In this document: piece by piece, positions 32,827 through 48,854 of the stretch
Layout: each line of letters starts with the position of its first letter
Numbering within the stretch: position 1 is the stretch's first letter
DNA from: Deltaproteobacteria bacterium
GTDB taxonomy: Bacteria; Myxococcota_A; UBA9160; UBA4427
Assembly: GCA_029261855.1 (NCBI GenBank)
Contig: JAJDAN010000004.1
Location: 1-64,000, forward strand
DNA: 64,000 nucleotides
Direction: 5' to 3'
Notes under the pieces: generated by a model
What the model was told of the DNA's origin: nothing
Databases searched by the model: none
The model's input: the letters and a program-made list of their open reading frames with translations, nothing else
Program-made: the position numbers and the translations under genes

Positions 32827-33813
32827 ATGCAGAAGCTCCCCCTCGGTCTCGTCTGTTGTCTGTCTACGTTGCTGCTGGCCATCGCACCCGGCGTCTCCGC
32901 CCAGGACCTGCTCTACGACGACGGCGGCGACCACGAGCTGTCCGACTACGGCACGCTCGGGAGCGGCTCCGTCGTCGAGGTGCGCGACGGCCCCGGGAAC
33001 GACCCGACGCACCTGGACGTCACGATCGACGACTTCACCTATCAGCTCGACGTCCGTGCCTACGACAACTCGAGCGCCGCACTCCAGCCGGGCATCGGGG
33101 ACTCCACCCTCAGCACCTACGGGAACGCAGTGGGCACGATCGCCAGCAGCTCCCCCGCCGAGAACGACGCCAACAGCTGGGGCAGCTCGCAGCTCACGGT
33201 GAGCAGCCGGCTCGGCCTGTCGACGGCGAACGAGACCTCGACCTTCACCTTCGAGGCCGGAGCGAACGCGATCCTGCACCAGGGCTACGGCAACTCGACG
33301 ACGATCATGCTGGGCGGCGTCACCCACGACACCCAGCTCTTCGATTCGGCGGTGATGCGGGTCTACGACGGCTTCGCCGGCTTCGAAGGAACCCTCGTGA
33401 CCGGTGATGCCTACCTCGAAGTGCTCGGCGGAAATCCCCATAGCGAGTCCGGGTTCTCTGTCACCGAACGGGGGCAAGCCGACATCCACTCGGGCGCAGC
33501 GCAGTTCGGCGAAGAACTCTTCTCGGTGTCCGACCAGGGCCTGATCCGACTATTCGGTCAGGACTTCCTGATCGACGGCGTGCCGGTCGGCTACGGCGAC
33601 ATCGGCTCTCTCGCCGGCGGCGCCACGCGGTCCGGGAACATCCAGGGCACCCTCGAATCCGGCGACCTCATCGACATGCAGTTCTTCGTGAGCGGCGCCG
33701 GCATCCTGCGCCTGGTGCCCGAGCCGGGAACCGGCACCTTGCTCACCCTGAGCCTGTTGCTGTGCGCCGCACTCCGCCGCGTCAGCGGGCCAACAAGCGA
33801 CCTTCGGGGCTGA
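32827..33813 (+). CDS. PEP-CTERM surface protein
   Basis: 328 residues. A signal peptide (LVCCLSTLLLAIAPGVSAQ) is followed by a serine/glycine/asparagine-rich beta-strand region with no named domain. Segments such as ESGFSVTERGQADIHSG and LFSVSDQGLIRLFGQDF look like short beta-helix rungs. The sorting signal is VPEPGTGTLLTLSLLLCAAL plus a basic tail. It is expected to be exported and processed by exosortase. Its 3' end overlaps the convergent gene by 32 bases, so the tail codons are shared between strands. Confidence 0.85.
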   Translation: MQKLPLGLVCCLSTLLLAIAPGVSAQDLLYDDGGDHELSDYGTLGSGSVVEVRDGPGNDPTHLDVTIDDFTYQLDVRAYDNSSAALQPGIGDSTLSTYGNAVGTIASSSPAENDANSWGSSQLTVSSRLGLSTANETSTFTFEAGANAILHQGYGNSTTIMLGGVTHDTQLFDSAVMRVYDGFAGFEGTLVTGDAYLEVLGGNPHSESGFSVTERGQADIHSGAAQFGEELFSVSDQGLIRLFGQDFLIDGVPVGYGDIGSLAGGATRSGNIQGTLESGDLIDMQFFVSGAGILRLVPEPGTGTLLTLSLLLCAALRRVSGPTSDLRG

Positions 33814-34570
33814 GCTCGAGGATCTTCGGCAACGCGGCTCCAGCTCCCAGCTGAGCCCGGGTCTCCGCAGCGGCGAAGCGCTTGCCCACGAAGGGGACGA
33901 CCCAGTCGAGCTGCAAGAGACGATCCCGCACGACGGCATCGCCGTGATCTCCCTGAGGCACAAGGATCGTCAGCGTGCCGGGCCCTGGCTCCGCGGTAGC
34001 CAGGGTCGCCAGCAACTCCGGGAAGTCCTCGGCTAGCGGATCGGCAAACACGCAGCGGAAGGCGCGACTCTCGCCGGCGGCACCGGGCCGCAGGGCGCGC
34101 AACGCGGTGCCACTGGAGTCCACCAGACGGGTCTGCACCGACAGCACGAAGTTCGGGGTCAGTTTGCTGATCTCGCCGCGCTGCACGCGGCCGACGCGGG
34201 CAACCAGGTCCGTCGCTTCGATCGGGACCTCATGGGCCCCGTAGCGACCGAAATCGACGCGCGCAGTCGACACATCCACGACCCGGATCAAGACACCCAG
34301 GCGATTCGCGGGAATCTCCTTGCTTCCGCCCACGGGCCGCAGCGGCTCGACGAGGGCCACCTGATAGGGCCAGAATCGCTCGCGCGCCAGCAGATCGTCG
34401 GCCGCAACCGTCTCGGCAGCGCCGGTCGACGAGTACGACATGGCGATCCACAGCAGTAGCAACAGGCGCTTCGCTCGCCGCGCCCGTTCGAAGCTTGCCG
34501 GAACGGCGGAAGCCGCCGTCCCAGCCTGGGACGACGGCTTCCTGTTCCTCGCGGGACTTGCTCTGATCAT
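33782..34570 (-). CDS. Uncharacterised exported protein
   Basis: 262 residues; not recognised. After an unusually long basic N-region, a hydrophobic stretch RLLLLLWIAMSYSSTGAA could be a signal peptide, followed by a mixed alpha/beta domain (FWPYQVALVEPLRPVGG, RLGVLIRVVDVSTARVDFG, LTILVPQGDHG). The start ATG at 34570 overlaps the preceding PEP-CTERM stop as ATGA, which supports both the start and an operon with the two genes upstream. The polar 45-residue N-terminus before the hydrophobic part is odd, and a later non-ATG start cannot be excluded. Confidence 0.55.
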   Translation of the reverse strand: MIRASPARNRKPSSQAGTAASAVPASFERARRAKRLLLLLWIAMSYSSTGAAETVAADDLLARERFWPYQVALVEPLRPVGGSKEIPANRLGVLIRVVDVSTARVDFGRYGAHEVPIEATDLVARVGRVQRGEISKLTPNFVLSVQTRLVDSSGTALRALRPGAAGESRAFRCVFADPLAEDFPELLATLATAEPGPGTLTILVPQGDHGDAVVRDRLLQLDWVVPFVGKRFAAAETRAQLGAGAALPKILELSPEGRLLAR

Positions 34571-35373
34571 GCTCTCGGGTGGATACCGGCGCGACGCGGC
34601 AGAACCCACAGCGCCGCGACGCCAGCCAACAACATCGCAACCGCACCCGGCTCGGGGACGGGCGTGGCGTGGATCGCCACGTTGTCGATGATCGGTTGCC
34701 CCAACGAAGGGTCGAGGCTCAGGCGAACGAATGCGGTGTCGCTGGTCACGTTGTCCAACGCCACCGTGTAGCCGGTGTCGCTCTCGTCGAGACCCACCGA
34801 ACCGAAGCTCGTATAGGAGCTTCCGTCCGTTGAGAACTCGACCTGCACCGTCGACGTGCCGCTGATGGTCTTGCCGCCAAAGCTCAGCTGCCAGTTGTTG
34901 GCGCCCTGGGGAGTCGAGCTGAGATCTGCACCGAAGACCACGCTGACCGCACCGGGTGCCGTCATCGCGAGTCGCTCGGTGAAGGTCTGTCCCTCGGCTC
35001 GGAGGACCGAGTGCGCATCGAAAGAGTTCGTTCCGATGACACTCGCGCTGCCGTCGATGTTCGACCGCAGCGAGCCCGCCGTCGGGATGAACACCTCGCT
35101 CCCGCTGCCGGCGGCGACGGGGGTCGACCCGTTCGAACCGTCGAACCAGGCCGTCCCGAAGCTGGCCGACTCCGCACCCGCGTTGTGGGTGGTGTCGAGA
35201 CTGGAGTAGTTGGCCGGCAGCACCGCCGTGTAGGTGGTGCCGTCGGTGGACAGGACCGAGTCGCTGAAGTACTGGGAAAAGTCCCAGCCCGCGACCGCAT
35301 CCGCCCCGGCCGAGCCGGCAACCGTTGCCGACAGGGCCATGCTTGCGGCCATTGCTAGTAGTCGTTTCATCAT
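34567..35373 (-). CDS. PEP-CTERM protein
   Basis: 268 residues. A signal peptide (LLAMAASMALSATVAGSAGA) is followed by a beta-sandwich-like region rich in Ser, Thr and Gly. It includes NNWQLSFGGKTISGTSTVQV and FVRLSLDPSLGQPIIDNVAI, resembling carbohydrate-binding or discoidin-type sandwiches common in PEP-CTERM proteins. The C-terminal signal is VPEPGAVAMLLAGVAALW plus a basic tail. GAGGAA lies 6 bases before the MM start. It is 35 bases downstream of the calcium-binding surface protein gene in the same operon. Confidence 0.85.
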   Translation of the reverse strand: MMKRLLAMAASMALSATVAGSAGADAVAGWDFSQYFSDSVLSTDGTTYTAVLPANYSSLDTTHNAGAESASFGTAWFDGSNGSTPVAAGSGSEVFIPTAGSLRSNIDGSASVIGTNSFDAHSVLRAEGQTFTERLAMTAPGAVSVVFGADLSSTPQGANNWQLSFGGKTISGTSTVQVEFSTDGSSYTSFGSVGLDESDTGYTVALDNVTSDTAFVRLSLDPSLGQPIIDNVAIHATPVPEPGAVAMLLAGVAALWVLPRRAGIHPRA

Positions 35374-35408
35374 TTGCATTTCCTCGTCAGGGGTTCGCAA
35401 CCCGGCCC

Positions 35409-37160
35409 TTAGAGCAGGCCCGCGATGCTGAGGACCGTCCAACCGTCGGTCCAGAGGGGCAGCGAAGGCGCGAACGCTCCGCGGTAGGTCGCCGCCGGGT
35501 CGGAACCCGTCGTCACACCGCCACCGATTCCGGCAGTGCTGGTCGGGTCCGGTCGCGGATCGATGGGCGCGCTCTTGAGCGTCGCATCGAGCTTGCCCGC
35601 CGCGTTGCCCTTCGGCTCGAAGGACACGTCCTCGTTCAGCAGCCCGAGGAAACCGGCGTCGTTCACCGTATTGGCCGTACCGCTGCTGTTGTACTCACCC
35701 GGAGCCGCCGCATCGCCGTTGCTGATGGCGAGCGCCGCGGCGCCTGCAACCGGCGTCGCACCATCGTCGTAGGTGCTGGCGACGCTGCGAATCAAGTCGG
35801 CGGCCACGTTGTCCGCCACGTCCCGGCCGGTCACCGACTCACCCGTGTCCATGTCCAGCTCGAGGCCCGCACGGCTACCCGTGTTGACGACGATGCTGTT
35901 CAGGATCTCGCCCGAGAAACCGTGGCGGAGATAGATGCCGCGGTTGTCGGACGCCTGCGAGGTGGGCGTCGCATCGGGCGAAGCCACCGGGGTGGTGCCG
36001 ATGATGGTGAGGTTGTAGAAGGCGGGGTTCGACATGGGCCAACCCGTGTCGTCGAAGACGCTGCCGGCTTCGTCCACCCGGATGTTCACGTCGCCAGCCC
36101 GCTCGAGGAAGTCGTCCCCGTCGAACTCGCCGGCGCGGTCACCGGACCCCGAACCGAAGGCAGTACCACCGTCCTCGTTGAAGAAGGGCATGATGCCGAA
36201 GGCCTTCTGGACCGTCCCGACGTAGCCCTGGTCGACGTCGAAGGTGTCGTCGCCCGCGAAGGTCACCATCAAGTTCTCGCCGTTGACCGTCCCACCGAAC
36301 CACTCGATGCCGTCGTCGAAGTTGACGTAGACCTCGATGTTCGTGAAGACGGTGCCATCCCCGACGCCGCCGAGGGAGATCCCGTTGAGCTCGTTGCCCG
36401 AACCGATCTCGTCACCGGCATGCCGTACCGAGATGTAGTCGTAGACACCCGAGCTGTCGTGCGGCTCGGTTCCGCCGTAGGTGGCGTCCGCGGCCGGGAA
36501 ACCCGGAACGGTGAGGCCCTCGATCGTGCACTGGCCGTAGCCGACGCCGCACTTGTCGGCGAGGTTGGTCGGCGCGTTGCCCATGATCACCAGACCGCCC
36601 CAGAGTGCGACGGTCGAGTTGCCCTGGGTATCCAGAGGTGCGAGCGGAGCACTGGTGGGGGTGTCGTCCAGGAAGTCCGGGGAGGCATCCGGGGTCGCGC
36701 AGCTCTGCGCCACGCCACAACCCGGAGGAAGCTCCGGGTCGAAGCCGGGGTAGGCGTCGTCGAAGCCGTCGCCATCCAGGTCATCGGCCACACCGTCGTC
36801 GTCGTTGTCGACGGCGCCCGTGGTCATGATGATGGGGTTGGTGGCGCTGCCGTCCGCGTTCACATAGCCCTCGCGCGTAACGATGAGCGCACCCGGGGTA
36901 CCGACCGTGGAACCGCCGACTACCGGGCCCGAGCGCGGTTGGCCGCGAACGATCACGCCCGGAAGGATGGTGAGCGTGGCGCCGTTCTTCACGAAGATGG
37001 GACGCTCGAGGAGGATCTCGGACTCTCCAGGGTCATCGCCCCAGATGTCGTCGCTGACGACGTCCGTGTTCACGGACACCAACGCCTGCGCGCTGGGAAC
37101 CATGCCAGCGAAAGCGAGAGCAAGCGCTGCGATCGGTGCAACTAGGAATTTGGTCTGCAT
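35409..37160 (-). CDS. Secreted calcium-binding, beta-helix-like protein
   Basis: 583 residues. A signal peptide (MVPSAQALV cleavage region) is followed by an N-terminal module with LERPIFVKNGATLTILPGVIVRGQ, common in large secreted beta-helix proteins. At about 115-138 an acidic DNDDDGVADDLDGDGFDD stretch matches thrombospondin type 3/EF-hand-like calcium repeats. Later rungs (YISVRHAGDEIGSGNELNG, FTNIEVYVNFDDGIEWFGG) are parallel beta-helix-like. No PEP-CTERM or other anchor is seen. It is first in an operon divergent from the TonB/ExbBD operon, so it may be cargo or a binding partner of that system (inference). AAGGGCAC precedes ATG 37160. Confidence 0.65.
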   Translation of the reverse strand: MQTKFLVAPIAALALAFAGMVPSAQALVSVNTDVVSDDIWGDDPGESEILLERPIFVKNGATLTILPGVIVRGQPRSGPVVGGSTVGTPGALIVTREGYVNADGSATNPIIMTTGAVDNDDDGVADDLDGDGFDDAYPGFDPELPPGCGVAQSCATPDASPDFLDDTPTSAPLAPLDTQGNSTVALWGGLVIMGNAPTNLADKCGVGYGQCTIEGLTVPGFPAADATYGGTEPHDSSGVYDYISVRHAGDEIGSGNELNGISLGGVGDGTVFTNIEVYVNFDDGIEWFGGTVNGENLMVTFAGDDTFDVDQGYVGTVQKAFGIMPFFNEDGGTAFGSGSGDRAGEFDGDDFLERAGDVNIRVDEAGSVFDDTGWPMSNPAFYNLTIIGTTPVASPDATPTSQASDNRGIYLRHGFSGEILNSIVVNTGSRAGLELDMDTGESVTGRDVADNVAADLIRSVASTYDDGATPVAGAAALAISNGDAAAPGEYNSSGTANTVNDAGFLGLLNEDVSFEPKGNAAGKLDATLKSAPIDPRPDPTSTAGIGGGVTTGSDPAATYRGAFAPSLPLWTDGWTVLSIAGLL

Positions 37161-37394
37161 GTGCCCTTCTCTTGTCTGATCTCTTGCGGTTGTTGGATGG
37201 GCCGCAACCTGAGTCGAACTGCGGCGACGCGCAGGATCACCGCCACGCATCACGAACGCGCTGCTGCTGCGTGACGATTGCGCAGAGCCCGCTCGGTCTC
37301 GCCGAGCGCCCAAGGCGAGTGGCGCAAGAACGAGCCGCCAGCGTCACCGATCCGTCACAGGGCTGGGCGAAAAGTCTGGCCGAGGCTCATCCCC

Positions 37395-38198
37395 ATGACA
37401 TTTCCGACATCCCCCACTTTCCGGATGACCTGGCTCGCCGCGCTGGGTCTACTGGTCGGCCTGCCCGCGATGGCCGAGCAGGCCGAAAGCATCCGCGACT
37501 ACCGCTCGAAGATGGAGAAGTGGGTCGAGACCCGACAGATCCTCTCTGCCGAGCGCGCCGACTGGCAGGTCGAGCAGGAAACCCTGCGCGCCACCCGCGA
37601 CCTGCTGCGCCGGGAAAAGCAGGCCCTGGAAGAAGAAACGCAGAGGCTGTCGGCTTCCAACACCGCGGCCGACGACGAGCGCCGCGAGCTGCTCCTCACC
37701 CGCGCCGAGCTCCAGCGGAGTCGCCAGGCGCTCGAAGCCCGGGTTCGCCTGCTCGAGCAGCGCGTCATCGAGCTGGGTCCCCAACTCCCGCCGCCGCTGC
37801 AGAAGAAGCTCGATCTGCTCTTCGTCCAGATTCCCGAGGACCCGGACAACACCCGGCTCCCCATCGGCCAGCGCCTCGTGACCGTGCTCGGCGTGCTGGG
37901 TCAAGCCGACAAGTTCAACGGCACCGCGACCTTCGTTGGCGAGACCCGCGCCGTCGCGGAAGGCGATGCTGGGCAGGAAGCCGCCCGGGTCTCGGTCCGC
38001 ACCCTCTACTGGGGGCTCGGGCAGGCCCTCTACGTCGACTCGCAGGGACGCAGTGCGGGCATTGGCCAGCCGGGCCCGAACGGTTGGGAATTCAGCAACG
38101 ACCCCGCCATCGCCGACGACATCCGCCGCCTGATCGACATCTACGAGGGAAACGTGGACGCAATCGAGTTCGTGAGCCTGCCGGTGCAGGTCCAATGA
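37395..38198 (+). CDS. DUF3450 periplasmic coiled-coil protein
   Basis: 267 residues. A signal peptide (LAALGLLVGLPAMA) is followed by a long coiled coil from about 35 to 135 (EQETLRATRDLLRREKQALE, LEARVRLLEQRVIELG). The globular C-terminal part contains VSVRTLYWGLGQALYVD and GWEFSNDP, typical of DUF3450. In Vibrio-type TonB2 systems such a gene precedes ttpC-exbB-exbD-tonB, so it probably is a periplasmic accessory of the energiser. ATG 37395 has GAGG 9 bases upstream. It overlaps the next gene by 4 bases. Confidence 0.85.
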   Translation: MTFPTSPTFRMTWLAALGLLVGLPAMAEQAESIRDYRSKMEKWVETRQILSAERADWQVEQETLRATRDLLRREKQALEEETQRLSASNTAADDERRELLLTRAELQRSRQALEARVRLLEQRVIELGPQLPPPLQKKLDLLFVQIPEDPDNTRLPIGQRLVTVLGVLGQADKFNGTATFVGETRAVAEGDAGQEAARVSVRTLYWGLGQALYVDSQGRSAGIGQPGPNGWEFSNDPAIADDIRRLIDIYEGNVDAIEFVSLPVQVQ

Positions 38199-39643
38199 AG
38201 GGTCCGATCCAACGGGCAGCCGCGCTCTTCGTTCTGTTGGCCGCCGTCGTCCACGCGGGCCCGGTCTTTGCAGACTTCGACCAGGCCAAGAGCCAGGTCG
38301 ACGGGCAGCTGCGAGAGTCTCTCGACGAGCTCGCGCGCGAGCGAAACCGCATCGCCAAGGAGAAGATCCCGCTGTCCCGAGCGGTGTCCCGGCTCGAGGC
38401 GGACGTGCTGAAGCTGCGACGCGAGCGCGAGCGGCTGGTGGAGGTCAACGACAGCCGAACCATCGACCTGGGCTCTCTTCGCAAGCAGGTCGACGCCATG
38501 CGGGAGCACGGCGACTTCGTGGACAGCCGTCTGGCCGAGTTCGTACGGGACTTCGAGGGCCGGCTCGACATCAGCGAGCTGCCCCGGTACGAGACGCTCA
38601 CGGCAGCAGCGAGATTGTCGGAGAAGAACGTCAACCTCGACGCCGAGGGCAAGCGGGAGACCCAGCTCGAGGTGGTTCGCGCCGCTCTCGAGCGCGTCGA
38701 GAAGCTCCTGGGCGGGGAGGTCTATCCGGGGCAGGCACTCGCCAGCACGGGCGTACTGACCGAAGGACGCTTCATCGCGCTCGGCCCGACCGTGCTCTAC
38801 GCCAGCAACGACGGCACGGTCAGCGGCCTGGTCGAACACCAGCTCAACGCCGCCGACCCGGTCGTGGTCCCTCTCCCGAGTGGTCTCGGTGCGGACATCG
38901 CGAAGATCGCAAGCGGCGAAGCCGGCCTGCTGCCCTTCGACTCGACCCTTGGAAAGGCGCTCAAGGTAGAGAAGGCGCGCAAGTCCATGGGACAGTACGT
39001 CGCCGAGGGCGGCGCAGTCGGGTACGTCATCCTGGCCCTCGGCGCGGTCGCGTTGCTTCTCACTGCCTTCAAGTGCATGGAAATCCTGCGCTTCCGGGTC
39101 GCCCGTCCCGACGAGCTCGACGCCATTCTCGAAGAGCTGGCCCGCGGCAGTCAAGCCGCCGCCGCCAAGCGCGCAGACGAAGTCCCCGGTGTCGCCGGCG
39201 AGATGCTGACCACCGGCGTCGCCCATGCGGAAGAGTCGCGCAGCATCCTCGAAGAGCTGCTCTTCGAGAAGGTCCTGCGGGTACGACCGGGTCTCGAACG
39301 CTTCCTTCCCTTCCTCGCGATCACTGCCGCTGCTGCGCCGCTGCTTGGCCTCCTGGGCACGGTGATCGGCATGATCAAGACCTTCCAACTCATCACCATC
39401 TTCGGCACCGGTGACGCCAAGAGTCTCTCGTCCGGTATCTCCGAGGCGCTGGTGACCACCGCCCTCGGTCTCGTCGTCGCGATTCCCACACTCATCCTGC
39501 ACGGCGCGCTCTCACGGATGGCCAAGCGCAAGATCGGCCTGCTGGAAGAGCTCTCCGTCGGCTTCGTCAACGGCGTCACGGCGATCCGTTCCGCGCTCGC
39601 ACGCCAGGACGCTTCGAGCAGTCGAGCGGTCCACGATGGATAG
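38195..39643 (+). CDS. TtpC-like MotA/TolQ/ExbB proton channel protein
   Basis: 482 residues. A signal peptide, then a periplasmic coiled-coil domain of about 230 residues (SLDELARERNRIAKEKIPLS), then three membrane segments. The ExbB/TolQ signature is AAAAPLLGLLGTVIGMIKTF followed by GISEALVTTALGLVVAIPTL. Length and layout match TtpC of Vibrio TonB2 complexes. It should couple proton motive force to TonB in the inner membrane. ATGA overlap with DUF3450 and an 8-base overlap with the second ExbB gene. Confidence 0.88.
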   Translation: MKGPIQRAAALFVLLAAVVHAGPVFADFDQAKSQVDGQLRESLDELARERNRIAKEKIPLSRAVSRLEADVLKLRRERERLVEVNDSRTIDLGSLRKQVDAMREHGDFVDSRLAEFVRDFEGRLDISELPRYETLTAAARLSEKNVNLDAEGKRETQLEVVRAALERVEKLLGGEVYPGQALASTGVLTEGRFIALGPTVLYASNDGTVSGLVEHQLNAADPVVVPLPSGLGADIAKIASGEAGLLPFDSTLGKALKVEKARKSMGQYVAEGGAVGYVILALGAVALLLTAFKCMEILRFRVARPDELDAILEELARGSQAAAAKRADEVPGVAGEMLTTGVAHAEESRSILEELLFEKVLRVRPGLERFLPFLAITAAAAPLLGLLGTVIGMIKTFQLITIFGTGDAKSLSSGISEALVTTALGLVVAIPTLILHGALSRMAKRKIGLLEELSVGFVNGVTAIRSALARQDASSSRAVHDG

Positions 39644-40232
39644 AGTCCTCGAGATCTGGCAGAGCGGCGGCTGGGTGATGATTCCCCTCTTCGCGCTCGC
39701 GGTGCTCCTCTACGCCCAGGCCTTCCAGCTGCTCTTCTACGTGCAGCGAACGCGGCTCGGCGGACGTGGCGAGGGCCAGTGGTGGGACTGGGTGCGCGCT
39801 CCGGAAAGAGCGCAGGGTCGGGTCGCAGACATCATCCGATACACCCAGAACGACGTCACTTCGGAAGCGGAGCTGCGCAACCGCTTCGACGAGATCCGGG
39901 GGGCGCTGATCTCACTCATCGACCGTCGCTCGCGCTTCGTCAGCATGCTCGTCGGTGCCGCGCCCCTGCTCGGGCTGCTCGGCACGGTGCTCGGCATGCT
40001 GCAGACCTTCTTCGGTATCTCGACGAGCGGGGGGACCGAAACCGCGGGAGTGGTGGCGGCGGGCATCTCCGAAGCCCTGGTGACGACCCAGACCGGTCTG
40101 ATCATCGCCCTGCCCGGCCTCTTCCTCGTGATGACGATCAATCGCCAGCGACAGGGCCTCGAAGCCCGACTCGCACGACTCGAGAGCCTGACCCTCAGCC
40201 ATTTCAAGTTCGCGGAACTGCCCGCGGAATAG
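39636..40232 (+). CDS. exbB: ExbB/TolQ family proton channel protein
   Basis: 198 residues, the compact ExbB form: an N-terminal membrane helix (GWVMIPLFALAVLLYAQAF), a cytoplasmic loop, and the last two helices with VGAAPLLGLLGTVLGMLQTF and GISEALVTTQTGLIIALPGL. The core motif nearly repeats that of the preceding TtpC-like protein. With ExbD it forms the proton-conducting motor that drives TonB. It begins inside the preceding gene, so the two are made in linked amounts. Confidence 0.9.
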   Translation: MDRVLEIWQSGGWVMIPLFALAVLLYAQAFQLLFYVQRTRLGGRGEGQWWDWVRAPERAQGRVADIIRYTQNDVTSEAELRNRFDEIRGALISLIDRRSRFVSMLVGAAPLLGLLGTVLGMLQTFFGISTSGGTETAGVVAAGISEALVTTQTGLIIALPGLFLVMTINRQRQGLEARLARLESLTLSHFKFAELPAE

Positions 40233-40273
40233 CGGAGAGCAGCGGGCGAAGTCCCCAACGAGAGGAGCACGAC

Positions 40274-40678
40274 ATGTCCAGAAGAAGCGTCGTCGGGGAA
40301 GACGAAGCGACCGAAATCAACCTGTCGCCGATGATCGACTGCATCTTCATCCTGCTCATCTTCTTCATCGTGACCACCGTCTTTGTCGAAGAAACCGGGC
40401 TGCAGGTCCACAAGCCAGACGCGGCCGCAGCTCAGCCCCTCGACGAAGACCGCGAGGGGGTCGTGCTCGAGATCACCGCGGACAACAAGATCCTGTGGGA
40501 GGACGTCGAGATCCAGATGGTGGACGTCCCCGGCCGGGTCAAGGCAAGCACCGCAGACCCCGAGACGCCGGTCGTCATCCGCGCTCACGAGCAGTCCGAC
40601 CACGGCACCTTCGTCGGGGTGTGGGACGCCGCGCGGCGCGGCGGCGCCCAGATCCTGAGCTTCAACACGATCAACTGA
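40274..40678 (+). CDS. exbD: ExbD/TolR family protein (first copy)
   Basis: 134 residues. One membrane helix near residues 18-40 with LSPMIDCIFILLIFFIVTTV, holding the conserved Asp that carries protons, followed by a periplasmic domain. GAGGAG lies 7 bases before the ATG. The helix region is almost identical at DNA level to the second ExbD gene 430 bases downstream, while the periplasmic domains differ; the two copies may form a mixed dimer or serve different partners. Confidence 0.92.
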   Translation: MSRRSVVGEDEATEINLSPMIDCIFILLIFFIVTTVFVEETGLQVHKPDAAAAQPLDEDREGVVLEITADNKILWEDVEIQMVDVPGRVKASTADPETPVVIRAHEQSDHGTFVGVWDAARRGGAQILSFNTIN

Positions 40679-40704
40679 ACACGATCGACTGAGACGATGC
40701 CCCG

Positions 40705-41109
40705 ATGGCCAAACGCAGCATCCTCGACGAACGCGACGACGAGACCGAGATCAACCTGTCGCCGATGATCGATTGCATCTTCATCCTGCTCATCTTCTTC
40801 ATCGTGACCACCGTCTTCGTCGAAGAGCCAGGGGTCGAGGTCCGCAAGCCCGACGCCAGCGTGGACGTCGACCTCGAGAAGAGCAGCATCCTCGTTGCGA
40901 TCACCTCGGACAACAAGGTCGTCTACGGCGGCAAGGAGCTCGGGATCGGGGGCGTGGGCGCCCGCGTCCGCAGCCTGCTGCAACAGGACAGCCTGCCCGT
41001 CATCATCCAGGCCGATTCCCGGTCGGACCACGGAGTCTTCTCGGACGTCTGGAGCGAAGTCAAGAACGCCGGCGCCAAGAAGATCAGCCTGTCGACGCGC
41101 AACGACTGA
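40705..41109 (+). CDS. exbD: ExbD/TolR family protein (second copy)
   Basis: 134 residues, the same length as the first copy, with the same membrane segment and a 28-residue identical stretch beginning TEINLSPMIDCIF. The periplasmic part (LVAITSDNKVVYGGKELGIG, LPVIIQADSRSDHGVFSDVW) has diverged. Its gene starts 26 bases after the first copy. It is a component of the ExbB/ExbD motor of this operon. Confidence 0.92.
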   Translation: MAKRSILDERDDETEINLSPMIDCIFILLIFFIVTTVFVEEPGVEVRKPDASVDVDLEKSSILVAITSDNKVVYGGKELGIGGVGARVRSLLQQDSLPVIIQADSRSDHGVFSDVWSEVKNAGAKKISLSTRND

Positions 41110-41117
41110 CCGGGCCG

Positions 41118-41780
41118 ATGCCGACGCGAAGCTACCGACTGCCGACCTCCCGCAGCGAGCTGCCCGCCAGCGTGCTGGCGGGCCTGATCTTCGCGTTCGC
41201 GCTGTTCGTGGCCATGGCCCTGACCCAGATGATGGGCAAGGTCGCCGTGCCGGTGCGCTCCGTCGAAGAAACCATCGTCCATTTCAAGGCACCCGAGCTG
41301 CTGGACATCGAGATCATCGAGGAAGCACCGCCCGAAGACGAGGAGCCGCCGCCCGAACTCGAGCAGGAGGCGCCCCTGCTTTCCCTGTCCCAGCTCGACA
41401 TCGCCCTCAACCCCGGCACGGGCGGCTCCCTGGCCGGGGACTTTGCGATGCCCGGACTGGCGAGCGCTTCCCGCGATCTCGGCACCGAAGACTTCGTCGA
41501 CTTCTCGGCGCTCGACCAGATGCCGAGGCCCATCGGTGTATCGGGCTTCGACTTTCCGCGACGCCTGCGCCGCAAGCCGGTGAGCGGACGCATCGTGCTC
41601 TTCATCCAGCTCGACCCCAACGGCGAAGTCTTGGACGTGCGGATCGACGCTTCCGACCTCCCGGACTTCGACGACTTCGTCAGCGACGCGGTCGCAAAGT
41701 GGAAGTTCACCCCGCCCACCCAGCAGGGTCGCCCGGTCAAGGCCCAGGCGAAGCTGCCCATCCCGATCCACATCAAGTAG
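41118..41780 (+). CDS. tonB: TonB family energy transducer
   Basis: 220 residues. An N-terminal membrane anchor (SVLAGLIFAFALFVAMALT) is followed by an acidic, proline-rich linker (EEAPPEDEEPPPELEQEAP). The C-terminal TonB domain contains RIVLFIQLDPNGEVLDVRI and AVAKWKFTPPTQQGRPVKA. It spans the periplasm and transmits energy from ExbB/ExbD to an outer-membrane receptor. The linker is short, as in TonB2-type proteins, which rely on accessory proteins such as TtpC to reach the receptor. Confidence 0.88.
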   Translation: MPTRSYRLPTSRSELPASVLAGLIFAFALFVAMALTQMMGKVAVPVRSVEETIVHFKAPELLDIEIIEEAPPEDEEPPPELEQEAPLLSLSQLDIALNPGTGGSLAGDFAMPGLASASRDLGTEDFVDFSALDQMPRPIGVSGFDFPRRLRRKPVSGRIVLFIQLDPNGEVLDVRIDASDLPDFDDFVSDAVAKWKFTPPTQQGRPVKAQAKLPIPIHIK

Positions 41781-41787
41781 GCATCCC

Positions 41788-43173
41788 ATGAAGCGAACCC
41801 TGACAGCCCACCGCGCGTTCGCGATCTGCGTCGCTGCGTTCCTGATTGGCAGCCTCGCCGCACCGGCGTCGGCACAGTTCCAGCCCTGGGAAGGAGCGTC
41901 CATCGTGGACGATCCCGAATGGCGGGCTCGCTTCCTCGGCAGCTATGGCTTCCTGTCCGGAGCCGAGCCGCAGATCCGCGCCGACGAGCTGGCGCTGTTG
42001 CGCGAAGTCGTCGACCTCATGAAGGTCAACTCGCGGGCTGCCGCCACCATGCTCCAGCGCAAGGTCGGCCCAGACGGCAGCGCCGCCCTCGACTTCGTGC
42101 TTGCCAACCTCGAGTTCCAGAACGGAAATCTCGACGCAGCGGCCCTGGCCTACGGCAGCGCCATCGAGAAGTTCCCGGACTTCCGCCGGGCCCACAAGAA
42201 CCTGGGCTTGCTGCGGGTGCAACGAGGTCAGTTTCACACCGCGGCCGGACACCTGAGCCGTGCCATCGAGCTGGGGGATCGCGACGGACGCAGCTTCGGC
42301 CTGCTCGGCTACTGCTACGTCAACCAGGAAAGCTGGCTCGCCGCCGAGCAGGCCTACCGTCAGGCGATCCTGCAACAGCCCGAGATCCGAGACTGGATTC
42401 TCGGGCTCGCGCAGTCGCTGCTCGCCATGGAGAAGCACCGCGACGCGGTCGCACTCTTTGCGACGCTCATCGACCAGGACCCGGAAGACGTGACCGCCTG
42501 GAAGCTGCAGGCCAACGCCTACCTGGGACTCGATCGACCTCGCGACGCCGCCGTGAACCTCGAAACCCTGCGAATGCTCGGCAAGGCCGACCCGGCCAGC
42601 CTGGTCCTGCTCGGCGACATCTACATGAACGAGGGACTGTACGAGATGGCGTCCGACACCTACCTGGCGGTCGTCGCGGGCGACGAGGACGGCAAGCAGT
42701 TCAGCGCCGCCTATCGCGGTGCCGAACTGCTCGTCCAGACCGGCTCGTGGAAGGCAGCACGCAAGCTGCTCGACACCATCGCGTCCCGCTACGGCACGAG
42801 CCTCGGGCCCGACGTCGAGCTCGAGGTGCTGACCCTGGAGGCAAAGGTCGCGCGTGCCGAGGGACGCCAGGCCGAGGCTGCAAGCCTGCTCGAATCCATC
42901 GTGGAGCGCGACGGCACGCGGGGCGGCGCGCTCCTCGAGCTTGCCGCCTACCACCGGGGGCGCGGCGAAAGCGAGAAGGCCCTGCTGTTGATCGAGCGGG
43001 CGCAGCGCCTCGACGCCTGGGAATACCGCGCCCTGCTCGACGCCGCACAGGTTCGGGTCGAAGAACGGGACTACGACCGGGCCGCCGCCCTGCTGCGGCA
43101 GGCGCTCCAGCTTCGCAACGAACCCCGGGTCGAGCGTTTCCTGGCGCGCGTCGAGCAGGCGATCCGCAGCTGA
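41788..43173 (+). CDS. Periplasmic TPR protein
   Basis: 461 residues. A signal peptide (AFLIGSLAAPASA) is followed by about ten tetratricopeptide-like helices pairs, for example ALAYGSAIEKFPDFRRAHKN, RQAILQQPEIRDWILGLAQS and ALLLIERAQRLDAWEYRALL. TPR genes sit in the same place in Vibrio-type TonB2 clusters. It probably scaffolds the energiser or links it to the receptor. It is separated from tonB by 7 bases and from the receptor gene by 13, so the whole set is one operon. Confidence 0.82.
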   Translation: MKRTLTAHRAFAICVAAFLIGSLAAPASAQFQPWEGASIVDDPEWRARFLGSYGFLSGAEPQIRADELALLREVVDLMKVNSRAAATMLQRKVGPDGSAALDFVLANLEFQNGNLDAAALAYGSAIEKFPDFRRAHKNLGLLRVQRGQFHTAAGHLSRAIELGDRDGRSFGLLGYCYVNQESWLAAEQAYRQAILQQPEIRDWILGLAQSLLAMEKHRDAVALFATLIDQDPEDVTAWKLQANAYLGLDRPRDAAVNLETLRMLGKADPASLVLLGDIYMNEGLYEMASDTYLAVVAGDEDGKQFSAAYRGAELLVQTGSWKAARKLLDTIASRYGTSLGPDVELEVLTLEAKVARAEGRQAEAASLLESIVERDGTRGGALLELAAYHRGRGESEKALLLIERAQRLDAWEYRALLDAAQVRVEERDYDRAAALLRQALQLRNEPRVERFLARVEQAIRS

Positions 43174-43186
43174 CCCCCCATCGGCC

Positions 43187-46100
43187 ATGACCCGTTTCCT
43201 CCTACTCGCCACGGCCCTCGCGGTCGCAGGGCCCGCCCTCGCACAAGAGACTCCCGACGACGTCTTCGGGGGTTTCGGCACGGCAACCACCGTCGAAGGG
43301 GTCGACGAGGCACCGCCTCGGGAACTGCGCGAGGGCGAGGGCGCCGTCCGCGGTCAGGTCCTCGACGCTGCGCAGGGCAACCCGATCGCATCCGTCACCG
43401 TGATCCTGGTCTGGCCGGCGCCGGCCGACGGCAGCCCCCCACGCCAGGACGTCACGGTCACCGACGCCGGTGGAGCGTTCGAGTTCGTCAGCGTACCCGC
43501 CGGCGAGTACGACCTGAGCTTCGTCAAGTCGGGCTACCGGGCGTCGGCCATGACGGGCTTCGCCGTCGAGGCCGGCGAGGTGACCCGCGCCGACTTCCCC
43601 TTGCCTCCGGTCCAGGCCGCCGCGGGCGAAGTGCTGCATCTCGACGCCTTCGTGGTCGAGGCCGCGACCGTCGCGGAAATGATGACCTCCCTCGAGCTGC
43701 GCATGGACTCGGACTCGATGCTCAACGTCATGAGCGCCGAGGACTTTTCGAAGTACGCGGCCAGCGATGTCGCCGAAGTGCTCAAGCGAGTCGCGGGCGT
43801 CAACGTCGTCGAGGGGCAGTTCGCCATCATCCGCGGCCTCGAGGACCGCTACAGCAGCACCCTCTACAACGGCGCAGTGATCCCGAGCCCGGACCCCGAC
43901 CGACAGTCTCCCCAGCTCGATCTCTTCGCATCGGAAATCGTGAGCGATCTGGTGGTCGCCAAGACCTTTGCGCCGGGTCTTCCCAGCAACTCGTCCGGCG
44001 GTGCCATCGACATCCTCACGCACGACTATCCGGAAGAGTTCGAGATTTCGGTCAAGAGCGCGGTGGGCTTCAACGAGAAGGCTGTCGACCGCTTCCTGAA
44101 GTACCAGAGCGGGTCGGCCTTCGGGAAGGACGTCGATTGGGACCAGACCGTCGACGGCGAGCTCGGCGCCACGATCGGCGGACGCTTCGACAAGTGGGGG
44201 CGCGAGTTCCGCTTCAAGGCCGTGGGCAACTGGGAGCTGGACCATGCGACGGCCGAAGGCTGGCAGGAAGGGCGCGAACCCCGGCTGACGCGGGTCCGCC
44301 GGGGTCAGGTCGAGGAGGCCGGCGATCTGTCCCTCGGCGAGCTCGGCCTTTCCGACGGTCGCTTCGACCTGACCACCAGCGCTCGCTCCGAGCAAGGAAC
44401 CGTCTACGGCGGCTTCGGCTTCGACATCGACGAGGACGGCGCGCACCGCATCGACAGCTCGGTCTTCTACACGAAGAAGCAGGAGCGCGTGGTGCAGCTT
44501 CGCGAGAACGGGTACTTCCCGAACCTCGACTACGAACCGTTGCGCGAGAAGGAGCTGGACGGCGAACAGATCGACTTCTCGGACTTCGACGATGCCGCGA
44601 CGCTCACGTCCTGGATCGCCCGCTCGGCCCGGGACGACACCAACGACTTTCCCAGTCGCGGATCGCTCTGGTTCACCCACTACGGCGAGAGTCGTTCCTT
44701 CAAGCGCGACCGCGACCTGCTCGTCACCCAGGTCAACGGCGTCCACGAGATCGACTGGCTGCAGATCGACTGGGCGACCAACTACGCCAAGACCACCCAG
44801 AAGGACCTGAGCCAACGCGTTCGCTACTTCATCGAGCCGGACGATCGCCGCGACGTTCCGTCGGAGTTCCCGGTTCTCGAAGGGCGGGTGCTGCCGGGCG
44901 TCTACGTGGCGAACGCCGGCCTGCTCTACAACTCCAATCGCATCGAGGAGGACCAGGGCTTCGGCCGTCTCGACCTCGATGCGAACCTCTTCGAGTCGGT
45001 CGAGGACCTCTTCGGGGTCTCCGTGCCGGTGCCCGAAACCCTCGAGATGAGCTTCCAGGTCGGCGGCTGGTACGAACATGCCAGCCGGGACGTCGACTCG
45101 GAGTTCCTCGAATCCCCCACCGTCGACGGCAGCAGTCAGTTCGGGATCATCGCCGACACGCCCCTCGAGCTCGGACTCCGGGTCCCGGAAGCGCTCGCCA
45201 CGACGTCGGAAGGAGTGCTCCAGGGTCTGCGAGACACGGTCAACCATTCGACCCGCGACATCTTGGCGACGCACCTGGGACTCACGACGACCTTCTTCGA
45301 GGACGTGGATCTGCTGACCGGCGTGCGATTCGAGAACATCCAGATCAAGTCGAAGAACGACCCCTTCACCGGGGAGCTCGCCTTCGACGATTCACCCGCC
45401 ATCTTCCCCTCCAAGTACCTGCTCTTCGACCGCCTGGACAATCCGACTCGCAGCGAGGTGCTGTCGACCCCTCCCGCCGGAACCACCTTCAACGATCAGC
45501 TGGTGGGAATCGCCGTGCCCGTCGATTTCGCGACGACCAACTGCGACCCTCGCGGCGAGACCCGCGGATGCGTCGACCTACCCACCGGCGCCGACATCGA
45601 GGCGCTGGTGAACGGCGAGATCGACGACTCCAAGGTCTTGCCAGCCGTCGGACTGACCTACCGGCCCATCGAAGGAATGGCCGTACGCGGTGCCTGGTCC
45701 CGAACCGTCGCTCGCCCCTCGTTCCGGGAGATGAGCTTCTACGTATCCACGGAACCCGGCAGCGACGACCTCATCGTCGGAAACCCGCAGCTGGGACTGT
45801 CGGACGTCGAGAGCTACGACGGTCGCATCGAATACGCCTGGGGCGAGCTTGGCGACCTGGTCGCCTTCAGCGCCTTCTACAAGACCATCGAAGACCCGAT
45901 CGAGAGCATCGTCATCCGGAACCCGATCAACTTCGAAGAGTCTTCGAGCGCCCTCTTCCGCACCTTCTTCAACAACCCGAGCGAGGCCAGGCTGTGGGGC
46001 ATCGAAGTCGAGGCCCGCAAGGCCTTCGACTTCATCGGCTGGGACCCGGTCGAGAGCTGGGCCCGCTACTTCTCGATCGGCGGGAACTTCACGTGGATCC

Positions 46101-46585
46101 AGGCCGAAGTCGACCGGATCGAGGCCGAGGTCGAGCGCGCCGAGCCCTTCTTCGGCATGCCCGCCGGACAGCCCGAACCCTTCAATCAGCTGAAGAAGAG
46201 CCGCCGCCTCTTCGGGCAGCCCGAGTGGATCGCCAACGCCGACCTCAGCTTCGACCATCCCGACTGGGGGACCCGCATCACCCTCGCGTGGTTCGCCATC
46301 AGTGACGTGCTCGACGCCGCGGGCAGCGTCTCCCTCGGCCCCGATGGGTCGGCGCGTTCGGCCACCATCGATCGCTACGTCGGAGAGTTCTACACCCTGG
46401 ACCTCATCGTGGGCCAGGAATTCGAGCTCCCGCATGGCACGCTGGGGCTGAAGTTCCGCGTCAAGAACCTGACGGACAGCAAGCGGCGCATCGTGTACGA
46501 CCCGTATCAGACCGACGAGCGCATTCCCGAGCGCAGCTTTCGCGTGGGGCGCGACTACAAGCTCACCCTGACCTACACGTTCTGA
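43187..46585 (+). CDS. TonB-dependent outer-membrane receptor with carboxypeptidase-regulatory-like domain
   Basis: 1132 residues. A signal peptide (LLLATALAVAGPALAQ) is followed by a carboxypeptidase-regulatory-like beta sandwich at about 50-140 (GAVRGQVLDAAQGNPIASVT, PAGEYDLSFVKSGYRASAM) and a TonB-box-like FVVEA. The plug follows (DVAEVLKRVAGVNVVEGQFA, IIRGLEDRYSSTLYNGAVIP), then a 22-strand barrel ending LRVKNLTDSKRR...YKLTLTYTF with the terminal aromatic. The ligand is not known; Oar/SusC-like N-domains suggest large or polymeric substrates. It ends the operon and overlaps the convergent gene by 13 bases. Confidence 0.88.
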   Translation: MTRFLLLATALAVAGPALAQETPDDVFGGFGTATTVEGVDEAPPRELREGEGAVRGQVLDAAQGNPIASVTVILVWPAPADGSPPRQDVTVTDAGGAFEFVSVPAGEYDLSFVKSGYRASAMTGFAVEAGEVTRADFPLPPVQAAAGEVLHLDAFVVEAATVAEMMTSLELRMDSDSMLNVMSAEDFSKYAASDVAEVLKRVAGVNVVEGQFAIIRGLEDRYSSTLYNGAVIPSPDPDRQSPQLDLFASEIVSDLVVAKTFAPGLPSNSSGGAIDILTHDYPEEFEISVKSAVGFNEKAVDRFLKYQSGSAFGKDVDWDQTVDGELGATIGGRFDKWGREFRFKAVGNWELDHATAEGWQEGREPRLTRVRRGQVEEAGDLSLGELGLSDGRFDLTTSARSEQGTVYGGFGFDIDEDGAHRIDSSVFYTKKQERVVQLRENGYFPNLDYEPLREKELDGEQIDFSDFDDAATLTSWIARSARDDTNDFPSRGSLWFTHYGESRSFKRDRDLLVTQVNGVHEIDWLQIDWATNYAKTTQKDLSQRVRYFIEPDDRRDVPSEFPVLEGRVLPGVYVANAGLLYNSNRIEEDQGFGRLDLDANLFESVEDLFGVSVPVPETLEMSFQVGGWYEHASRDVDSEFLESPTVDGSSQFGIIADTPLELGLRVPEALATTSEGVLQGLRDTVNHSTRDILATHLGLTTTFFEDVDLLTGVRFENIQIKSKNDPFTGELAFDDSPAIFPSKYLLFDRLDNPTRSEVLSTPPAGTTFNDQLVGIAVPVDFATTNCDPRGETRGCVDLPTGADIEALVNGEIDDSKVLPAVGLTYRPIEGMAVRGAWSRTVARPSFREMSFYVSTEPGSDDLIVGNPQLGLSDVESYDGRIEYAWGELGDLVAFSAFYKTIEDPIESIVIRNPINFEESSSALFRTFFNNPSEARLWGIEVEARKAFDFIGWDPVESWARYFSIGGNFTWIQAEVDRIEAEVERAEPFFGMPAGQPEPFNQLKKSRRLFGQPEWIANADLSFDHPDWGTRITLAWFAISDVLDAAGSVSLGPDGSARSATIDRYVGEFYTLDLIVGQEFELPHGTLGLKFRVKNLTDSKRRIVYDPYQTDERIPERSFRVGRDYKLTLTYTF

Positions 46586-47537: not shown

Positions 47538-48854
47538 GTGCGGGTGCAGATTCGGCTTCTCGCGTGCGCGTTCGTCTTCCTGGTTGCCGGCTGCGCGCCG
47601 GAGCGCCGACCCGACCTCGTCCTGGTCGCGATCGACACCTTGCGCGCCGATCGTCTCGAGGCCTACGGCCACGAGCTCGAGACGGCCCCGACCCTGGCGT
47701 CACTGGGCGCCGAGGGAATCGTGTACGAACGCGTGGTCGCGTCGTCCAGCTGGACCAAGACCTCGATGGCGTCGCTCTTCACCAGCCGCAACCCACTGCG
47801 CCACGGTGTGATGCGCGAACGCGGCGTGCTGCCATCGGACCTCACGACCCTCGCGAGCGCGCTGCAGGCGGCGGGCTACCAGACCCTCGGTGTGAACTCG
47901 AACCCCTGGCTGGTCGAGGCCTCTGGCTTCGCCCGGGGCTTCCTCGAGTACGAGTCGCTGCTCGATCCGAAGCGCGGCTTCGTGCCGGCCTCCGAGGTCA
48001 ACCGGAGCGCGCTGGCGCTGGCGGGCGCGGCGCACCCGGCCGAGCCGCTGTTCCTGTACGTCCACTACATGGACGCCCATGCACCCTACTCGTGGCGCAA
48101 CGACGCCGGGCGTCCGCGCGTCCGGCTTCCCGGCGAAGGCCCGGTCGCGGACGCTCGGCTCGAGCAGCTCTATCGCAAGCAGGGCCTCGACGATCCGGCC
48201 GCGCACCAGCGCGTGCTCGAGATGTACGACGCCGGTATCCGCGCCGCGGACGCGGGGCTCTCGGAGCTGCTCGCCGGTCTCGACGCGCTCGGGCGGCCCT
48301 CGCCGCGCATCGTCGCGGTGACGTCGGACCACGGCGAAGGCTTTCGCGAACACGGCACCACCGAGCACGGCTGGAACATCTATCCCGAGGTCTACGCCGT
48401 GCCGCTCGTGATCGCCGGCGACGACCTGCCCGCGGGCGTCCGCATCCCCAGCCAGGTCCGTTCCATCGACCTCGCGGCGACCCTGCTGGGGTTCGCGGGA
48501 GCTTCCGCGCCCGCGAGCTTCGACGGCGAACCCCTTCCCCTGACGTCTGCCGGCGCAGTCGACCGCACCGCCGTCAGCTCCCTCGGCTTCGGCGGCTACG
48601 TGCCCGACCGACACTACGTGGGGATCGTGTCGGGGACGCATCTCTTCCTGCGTGAACGGGTCGGGGGACAGGTCGAGTTCTTCGATCTCCGGGACGACCC
48701 CGGCGCACACCAGGACCTGGGAGGCGAGCATCCGGACGCCCGCGCCAGCGCGGCGTTCGAGGCGAGCCTCGTGCTGCGCGAGGACGAGGGCCGAAGCGAA
48801 GCACTGGCGCCCGAGACCGCCGAAGCCCTGCGCGCCCTCGGCTATCTCGAGTGA
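47538..48854 (+). CDS. Sulfatase-like lipoprotein (alkaline phosphatase superfamily)
   Basis: 438 residues. Lipobox LVAGC, then the sulfatase fold: DLVLVAIDTLRADRLEAYGH with the metal-binding Asp, HYMDAHAPY, and VTSDHGEGFREHGTTEHGWN with the second metal Asp-His. The usual formylglycine motif (C/S-x-P-x-R) is not present at the expected site; instead SSSWTKTSMASLFT offers a Thr or Ser, as in phosphotransferase-like members. It may thus be a phosphodiesterase or transferase rather than a true sulfatase. Starts GTG 47538 or GTG 47544 are equally weak. Acts in the periplasm or on the outer membrane. Confidence 0.75.
   Translation: MRVQIRLLACAFVFLVAGCAPERRPDLVLVAIDTLRADRLEAYGHELETAPTLASLGAEGIVYERVVASSSWTKTSMASLFTSRNPLRHGVMRERGVLPSDLTTLASALQAAGYQTLGVNSNPWLVEASGFARGFLEYESLLDPKRGFVPASEVNRSALALAGAAHPAEPLFLYVHYMDAHAPYSWRNDAGRPRVRLPGEGPVADARLEQLYRKQGLDDPAAHQRVLEMYDAGIRAADAGLSELLAGLDALGRPSPRIVAVTSDHGEGFREHGTTEHGWNIYPEVYAVPLVIAGDDLPAGVRIPSQVRSIDLAATLLGFAGASAPASFDGEPLPLTSAGAVDRTAVSSLGFGGYVPDRHYVGIVSGTHLFLRERVGGQVEFFDLRDDPGAHQDLGGEHPDARASAAFEASLVLREDEGRSEALAPETAEALRALGYLE

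Follow-up and report, generated by a model that had tools for sequence, protein, structure and literature searches.

Divergent operons for a secreted β-helix protein and a motor-equipped TonB-dependent receptor in a Myxococcota genome: a probable phosphorus-scavenging system

In the genome of a Deltaproteobacteria bacterium (Myxococcota_A; assembly GCA_029261855.1, contig JAJDAN010000004.1), a tight operon for a TonB-dependent receptor and an energising motor lies back to back with an operon for secreted surface proteins. Are these neighbours by chance, or the two halves of a single machine, and what would such a machine handle? The window, that is, the whole stretch of DNA analysed (positions 1 to 64,000 of the forward strand), comprises 64,000 nucleotides (67.6% GC) of a 6.96-Mb genome. 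The evidence supports a single system, and we consider it probable that the divergent operons form one Pho-regulated outer-membrane machine for scavenging phosphorus, driven by a dedicated TonB2-type motor. The parts of the locus are listed below.

37395-38198, plus strand: DUF3450 protein in the TtpB place, the first gene of TonB2 operons (PF11932, 76.6 bits)
38195-39643, plus strand: TtpC-like long ExbB (PF01618, MotA_ExbB, 99.2 bits)
39636-40232, plus strand: ExbB (PF01618, MotA_ExbB, 75.9 bits)
40274-40678, plus strand: ExbD1 (PF02472, 86.6 bits)
40705-41109, plus strand: ExbD2 (PF02472, 91.5 bits)
41118-41780, plus strand: TonB (PF03544, TonB_C, 46.6 bits)
41788-43173, plus strand: TPR protein in the TtpD place (TPR models; position as in PMC6957404)
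43187-46585, plus strand: TonB-dependent receptor (CarboxypepD_reg 54.2, Plug 35.5, TonB_dep_Rec 100.6 bits)
37342-37358, plus strand: Pho box in the divergent promoter, a direct repeat CGTCAC-N5-CGTCAC with an 11-bp period
35409-37160, minus strand: BHX, a 583-residue secreted right-handed β-helix protein of the ElpS / FI-FII family (predicted fold and relatives)
34567-35373, minus strand: PEP1, a PEP-CTERM protein (Pfam 15.1 bits, under the 20.7 cut-off; PEP tail visible)
33782-34504, minus strand: UNK, exported, with a thioredoxin fold predicted for its C-terminal part (residues 117-240; start codon uncertain)

The original prediction had the gene order, strands and coordinates of both operons right; the starts were refined, and the motor parts and the receptor scored above the Pfam cut-offs. 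Intergenic distances in the plus-strand operon (37395-46585) range from small overlaps to 41 bp, and 234 bp separate it from the minus-strand BHX-PEP1-UNK operon (37160-33782). The receptor carries its CarboxypepD_reg domain at the N-terminus (Pfam). The motor follows the TonB2-type (TtpC) pattern, TtpC-ExbB-ExbD-TonB with a first and a last accessory gene, which is the order, as had also been predicted, of the Vibrio TonB2 and TonB3 systems (TtpB, TtpC, TtpD; PMC6957404). The outermost genes of the Vibrio vulnificus TonB2 operon, ttpB2 at its start and ttpD2 at its end, are essential for the TonB2 system (PMC6957404), suggesting that the DUF3450 and TPR genes may be working parts here too. 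However, Vibrio TonB2 is iron regulated (PMC6957404), whereas the present locus has a Pho box, two ExbDs and surface partners, and its operon ends with the receptor gene.

Sixty genomes, the host's own included, were searched for BHX, the receptor and TtpC. BHX and its cognate receptor were found in the same 14 genomes (Fisher 5.8e-14, relatedness not corrected for). In this table, G019 was scored receptor-positive from a 46-residue fragment at a contig end adjoining BHX; G047 (BHX E 2.4e-4 over 97 residues) and eight genomes with weak receptor matches (≤35 bits) were excluded. The TtpC subfamily was shared with BHX in 11 genomes, BHX occurred without it in three, and TtpC occurred alone in two; TtpC is 65-72% identical in most BHX-bearing relatives. 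The commonest order in relatives is motor-receptor-BHX-PEP1-UNK on one strand, as in G018. The order is rearranged to BHX-PEP1-UNK-motor-receptor in G024, and G040 retains receptor-BHX-PEP1-UNK with a more distant motor (37%). BHX and the receptor are usually adjacent in relatives, whereas in the window the motor genes lie between them and BHX diverges from the motor; in G015, BHX diverges from the receptor itself. The whole set recurs in relatives, and the arrangement is not a chance one. It is true that parts lie on different contigs in some relatives (in G042, the receptor and BHX are on separate contigs, each close to a contig end) and that two genomes have the motor only. Nevertheless, co-occurrence in 14 of 14 genomes, the usual adjacency and the shared Pho box described below support the two divergent operons being one system, as originally proposed, and make it extremely improbable that unrelated operons came to face each other by chance. 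Independent inheritance of the operons in relatives, which had been named as the finding that would overturn the proposal, was looked for, and the opposite was seen: the operons are linked.

Two further observations concern these parts. The host genome holds a diverged second BHX-receptor pair (L103, G000:C58:1-6285; 26% and 32%), cut by a contig end, and two genomes of genus g10 have, a few kb away from BHX, an additional distant ExbB/ExbD pair (L087:2348-3330 and L089:11370-12361).

The regulation of the system is indicated by the promoter between the operons. A scan with an E. coli-type Pho consensus led by eye to the repeat CGTCAY-N5-CGTCAY. This first sighting is biased, because the repeat was picked out in the system's own promoters at 11-bp spacing. 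Across the 6.96 Mb there are 9 copies of the pattern CGTCAYNNNNNCGTCAY and one of its reversed-pattern control. Sites include 37342-37358, inside the promoter shared by the operons, and a copy that separates phoU from pstS-pstC-pstA-pstB, phoB and the gene of a PhoR-like kinase being found on the far side of phoU; a promoter repeat of 11-bp period in common with the pst genes of the host genome is the mark by which we assigned the locus to the Pho regulon. Six of the nine exact repeats in the genome are without a clear phosphate link. The pstS promoters of 25 loci from relatives served as an independent test. Repeats matching at 11 or more of 12 positions were found upstream of pstS in 12 loci at 11-bp spacing and in 8 at 22; the remaining spacings between 7 and 27 each gave at most two loci. 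When the window was scored with a matrix made from 10 of these pstS-promoter sites, host genome excluded, the top site was 37342-37358, at 24.5 bits versus 13.7 for the next (a 10.8-bit lead); the maxima in eight shuffled windows were 13.7-20.1 bits. The matrix also gave high-scoring sites in several relatives, ahead of either the receptor gene or the DUF3450 gene. By sequence, both operons share one promoter carrying the Pho box of the clade. A similar association was seen in G052, in which the motor and a copy of UNK lie two small genes from pstS-pstC-pstA, with a Pho-type site at pstS.

Sites of this type were also seen elsewhere. One CGTCAY-N5-CGTCAY repeat lies 53 bp upstream of a gene with a VTC domain (polyphosphate polymerase family; L208:2169-3047), followed by a DUF4956 gene; the VTC-domain gene is likely to be a further member of the Pho regulon. 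A different exact Pho-like repeat lies roughly 50 bp from the start of a gene for a PEP-CTERM protein (L213:1641-3002, 27 bits). In G015, two high-scoring sites (L100:1676 and 1834) lie downstream of the thioredoxin-fold gene, with no gene matched to them.

A scan of a species-genome collection with the BHX alignment gave at least 572 relatives, and the best 80 are the named loci considered here. These are mostly from Bacteroidota, with others from Verrucomicrobiota, Ignavibacteria, Zixibacteria, Acanthopleuribacter and elsewhere. The receptor adjoins BHX in 72 of the 80 and is on the same strand in 71 (that of L109 was counted from a profile search). In six of the eight loci without a receptor (L126, L138, L143, L158, L174 and L187), the sequence stops at BHX or next to it, leaving L167 and L184 as true misses. 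The flanking-gene clusters include PhoB-type regulators, PiT, an OprP-like porin, PstS and PstC, those of PiT and OprP being named by eye. A Pst, PhoU, PiT or OprP-like gene was present in 19 of the 80 loci, or in 32 if PhoB/PhoR-like genes are included; these counts come without a matched control set and are thus a lead, not a test. A BHX relative was also found in 21 plasmid records, and among five that were inspected the receptor adjoins it in four, the exception being Marinobacter. The order in the Alteromonas plasmid is phoB-phoR-pstS-oxygenase-BHX-receptor-motor. In eight promoters from Alteromonas, Pseudoalteromonas, Sphingomonas and Indioceanicola, suggestive matches to an E. coli-type box were confined to the region ahead of BHX in two of the four species (p 0.01 and 0.005).

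These data also bear on the polymer-uptake machine of the original prediction. General uptake of carbohydrate polymers by a SusCD-like system with no phosphate connection has in its favour that a receptor with a surface β-helix resembles, in outline, pairs that handle polysaccharides, and that sulfatase-family and amylase-family genes lie downstream. However, the Pho box in the shared promoter and the pst, phoBR and PiT neighbours speak for the scavenging of phosphorus instead, the SusD model was absent from the matches of the 12 locus proteins scanned, and locus maps showed that the sulfatase-family gene is not kept beside the system in relatives. We therefore regard this alternative as very unlikely.

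The receptor-BHX pair itself is already known, although its mechanism is not. In Caulobacter crescentus, ElpS (cc0170) is a surface lipoprotein made under phosphate starvation beside the receptor CC0171 (Le Blastier et al. 2010, PMC2996285); its authors noted that ElpS and CC0171 co-occur in genomes and considered a role in phosphate uptake (PMC2996285). BHX is 42% identical to a Sphingomonas plasmid protein (143 aligned columns, E 6e-22) encoded beside a receptor and gsp genes, and the BHX-receptor-gsp arrangement, seen on Sphingomonas and Indioceanicola plasmids, is like that of cc0170-cc0171-gsp. BHX was placed in the ElpS / FI-FII family by this locus context, together with the adjoining receptor and the link to phosphate starvation, and not by direct alignment with ElpS or Fjoh_0546. 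The present system differs from ElpS in the absence of a lipobox and in having a dedicated TonB2-type motor, a PEP-CTERM partner and a thioredoxin-fold protein; moreover, unlike in the ElpS locus, no gsp (type II secretion system, T2SS) gene was found among the window neighbours scanned. In Flavobacterium johnsoniae, the ElpS-related FI and FII lipoproteins and their TonB-dependent transporters (Tbdts) are induced by phosphate depletion (Lidbury et al. 2020, PMC8115612). There too, receptor and surface protein lie side by side, FII being in a phoBR operon (PMC8115612), and the Bacteroidota BHX loci have similar neighbours (a PhoB-type regulator, an OprP-like porin and PiT). In contrast to the present case, FI, FII and FIII are lipoproteins, and the available text mentions no dedicated motor for their clusters; their function is likewise unproven (PMC8115612). 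SusCD and PusCD also combine a receptor with a surface capture protein (PMC8115612), the surface partner here being a β-helix. The claim that pairing with surface proteins sets this locus apart from Vibrio TonB2 was thus correct, but the pair has precedents in ElpS/CC0171 and FI/FII-Tbdt. In the open-access literature that was searched (subscription papers were outside its scope), no description was found of a receptor-BHX pair with a dedicated TonB motor of TtpC type, nor of the exchange of anchor between PEP1 and BHX, a thioredoxin-fold member or the Pho box of the clade.

The presence of a dedicated motor raises the possibility of transport in the opposite direction. In Myxococcus xanthus, the receptor Oar and its own Ton system, which includes two ExbDs, are required for secretion of the protease PopC, an export that has been demonstrated (PMC6434023). 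By analogy, the receptor could be a motor-powered exit gate for BHX or a phosphatase, still Pho-regulated but with the cargo moving outward; the Ton system in the receptor operon, the two ExbDs and the one-to-one pairing of BHX and receptor would all fit. The ElpS data argue otherwise, since release of ElpS is T2SS-dependent and without the T2SS it remains on the surface, and ElpS is still produced after deletion of cc0171 (PMC2996285; this concerns production only, not surface exposure). In addition, 22 of the 45 sequences in the mixed BHX alignment have a lipobox, which implies other routes, and of the 80 named loci only about 5 have motor genes of TtpC type close to BHX: L109 and L111 (Myxococcota, a metagenome-assembled genome and 'bacterium TMED88'), L114 and L126 (Luteolibacter, Akkermansiaceae) and L188 (Chitinivibrionales), with a weak case in L182. 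The motor is also near BHX on the Alteromonas and Pseudoalteromonas plasmids. Taken together, we consider export unlikely.

Neither BHX nor UNK has a family match in Pfam or NCBIfam. The predicted BHX model is a right-handed parallel β-helix (mean predicted local distance difference test score, pLDDT, 67.8; predicted template modelling score 0.76). By VIA-align it matched the tailspike 5w6p (Z 20.0, root-mean-square deviation (RMSD) 3.2, 259 aligned) and the pectate lyase 1ru4 (Z 19.3, RMSD 3.2, 274 aligned); the fold call rests on these alignments and on a model of that mean pLDDT, and Foldseek returned nothing at E ≤ 0.001. Sequence searches of the PDB gave no match for the BHX profile or the receptor. 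Nine acidic residues (D282, D283, E286, D304, D305, D308, D310, E345 and D347), kept in 44-45 of 45 BHX sequences, rank among the most conserved in the protein. The "calcium-binding beta-helix-like" description thus stands for the β-helix, as a predicted fold, while calcium binding rests on Asp-rich loops identified by eye. The same features raise the question of whether BHX is an enzyme, a lyase, hydrolase or phosphoesterase that would free phosphate or phosphorylated fragments outside the cell for the receptor to import. Its matches to pectate lyases, alginate epimerases and tailspike depolymerases (Z 16-20) and the conserved acidic residues are consistent with such a role. However, fold alone shows no function, BHX has no match to a catalytic family in Pfam, NCBIfam or the PDB profile search, and alkaline phosphatase activity was absent from ElpS preparations (PMC2996285). 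An enzymatic BHX, which would overlap with the scavenging system proposed here, is possible but on the unlikely side. An enzyme would be compatible with import or export, and the analogy with Oar-PopC may keep export under consideration.

The other two surface-set proteins follow BHX closely. A gene for PEP1 was found in 10 of the 13 BHX-bearing relatives; in nine it separates BHX from UNK, and in G055 it lies on the far side of UNK. The three relatives that lack it (G019, G022 and G052) are exactly those in which BHX itself has a PEP-CTERM tail (p 0.0035, relatedness not corrected for; the diverged pair L103 was left out of this comparison), whereas the BHX of the window ends without such a tail and has the PEP1 gene beside it. 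The genome has seven exosortase-family matches. This complementarity suggests that PEP1 may be a detached anchor or display partner of BHX, and lends support to the earlier idea of display or capture parts, which the data fit. A UNK homologue was found in all 13 BHX-bearing relatives, and five of 14 UNK homologues of relatives have a lipobox. The UNK model (pLDDT 80.9, built from only four sequences) has a thioredoxin fold (4fyu, Z 12.4, RMSD 2.6, 116 residues; Foldseek E 1.4e-4) but lacks CXXC, having a single cysteine, and its profile against PDB sequences gave GTPase rows at chance level only. UNK is a conserved third member of the surface set, presumably an accessory.

A mechanism can be outlined for the scavenging system. 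When phosphate is short, PhoB would bind the repeat in the shared promoter and turn on both operons. BHX, exported via its signal peptide, would be kept at the cell surface with the help of PEP1 and would capture a phosphorus-containing ligand or present it to the receptor; its conserved acidic centre, which resembles a metal site, would probably serve this purpose. By homology, DUF3450-TtpC-ExbB-ExbD1-ExbD2-TonB-TPR would be the receptor's own proton-driven motor, in which TonB pulls the receptor plug to admit the ligand to the periplasm; periplasmic phosphatases and PstSCAB might then complete phosphorus uptake. We infer import, the ligand, a physical complex and the direction of transport, with import of a phosphorus compound as the first choice. 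Besides the bias in the first sighting of the repeat, several results weigh against such a function. At 11-bp spacing, 10 of the 25 pstS promoters scored 9 of 12 or less; the E. coli-type consensus was not significant for the window among 38 upstream regions (p 0.5); in the DNA examined, 48 of the 80 BHX loci are without a Pho gene; and two genomes have a motor without BHX or receptor, at a contig end in both. The lipobox of ElpS is absent from the window BHX and from 14 of 14 other Myxococcota sequences tested. Furthermore, deletion of elpS left phosphatase activity unchanged and caused no measurable change in intracellular phosphate (PMC2996285), so that import is unproven even in the model organism.

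Passage of scarce phosphorus compounds across the outer membrane is mostly attributed to passive porins. A receptor under phosphate control, equipped with its own motor and a conserved surface partner, would provide active entry, and would offer a mechanism for ElpS and FI/FII, phosphate-starvation proteins of unassigned job. BtuB and BtuG reportedly form another pair of receptor and surface capture protein. More tentatively, and with less confidence than in scavenging as such, BHX and its receptor might be the phosphorus counterpart of SusCD and BtuG-BtuB, a Ca2+-bearing β-helix lid binding phosphate or phosphoesters via the metal, with import by the TtpC motor. On that tentative reading, motor-driven phosphorus uptake across the outer membrane would be a general bacterial trait, found in Myxococcota, Verrucomicrobiota, Gammaproteobacteria and Chitinivibrionales and, with shared motors, across Bacteroidota. 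The pair is so widespread that one tractable species would inform many phyla.

Two neighbouring genes complete the picture of the locus. A second PEP-CTERM protein is encoded at 32827-33813 (plus strand), convergent with the UNK gene and overlapping its end; no homologue of it was found in the relatives' loci searched. The sulfatase-family gene downstream of the receptor (47538-48854, plus strand) encodes a lipoprotein-like member of the sulfatase/alkaline-phosphatase superfamily (PF00884, 131 bits; PF01663, 30.9 bits), in which the nucleophile appears by eye to be Thr rather than Cys or Ser, as would fit a phosphoesterase.

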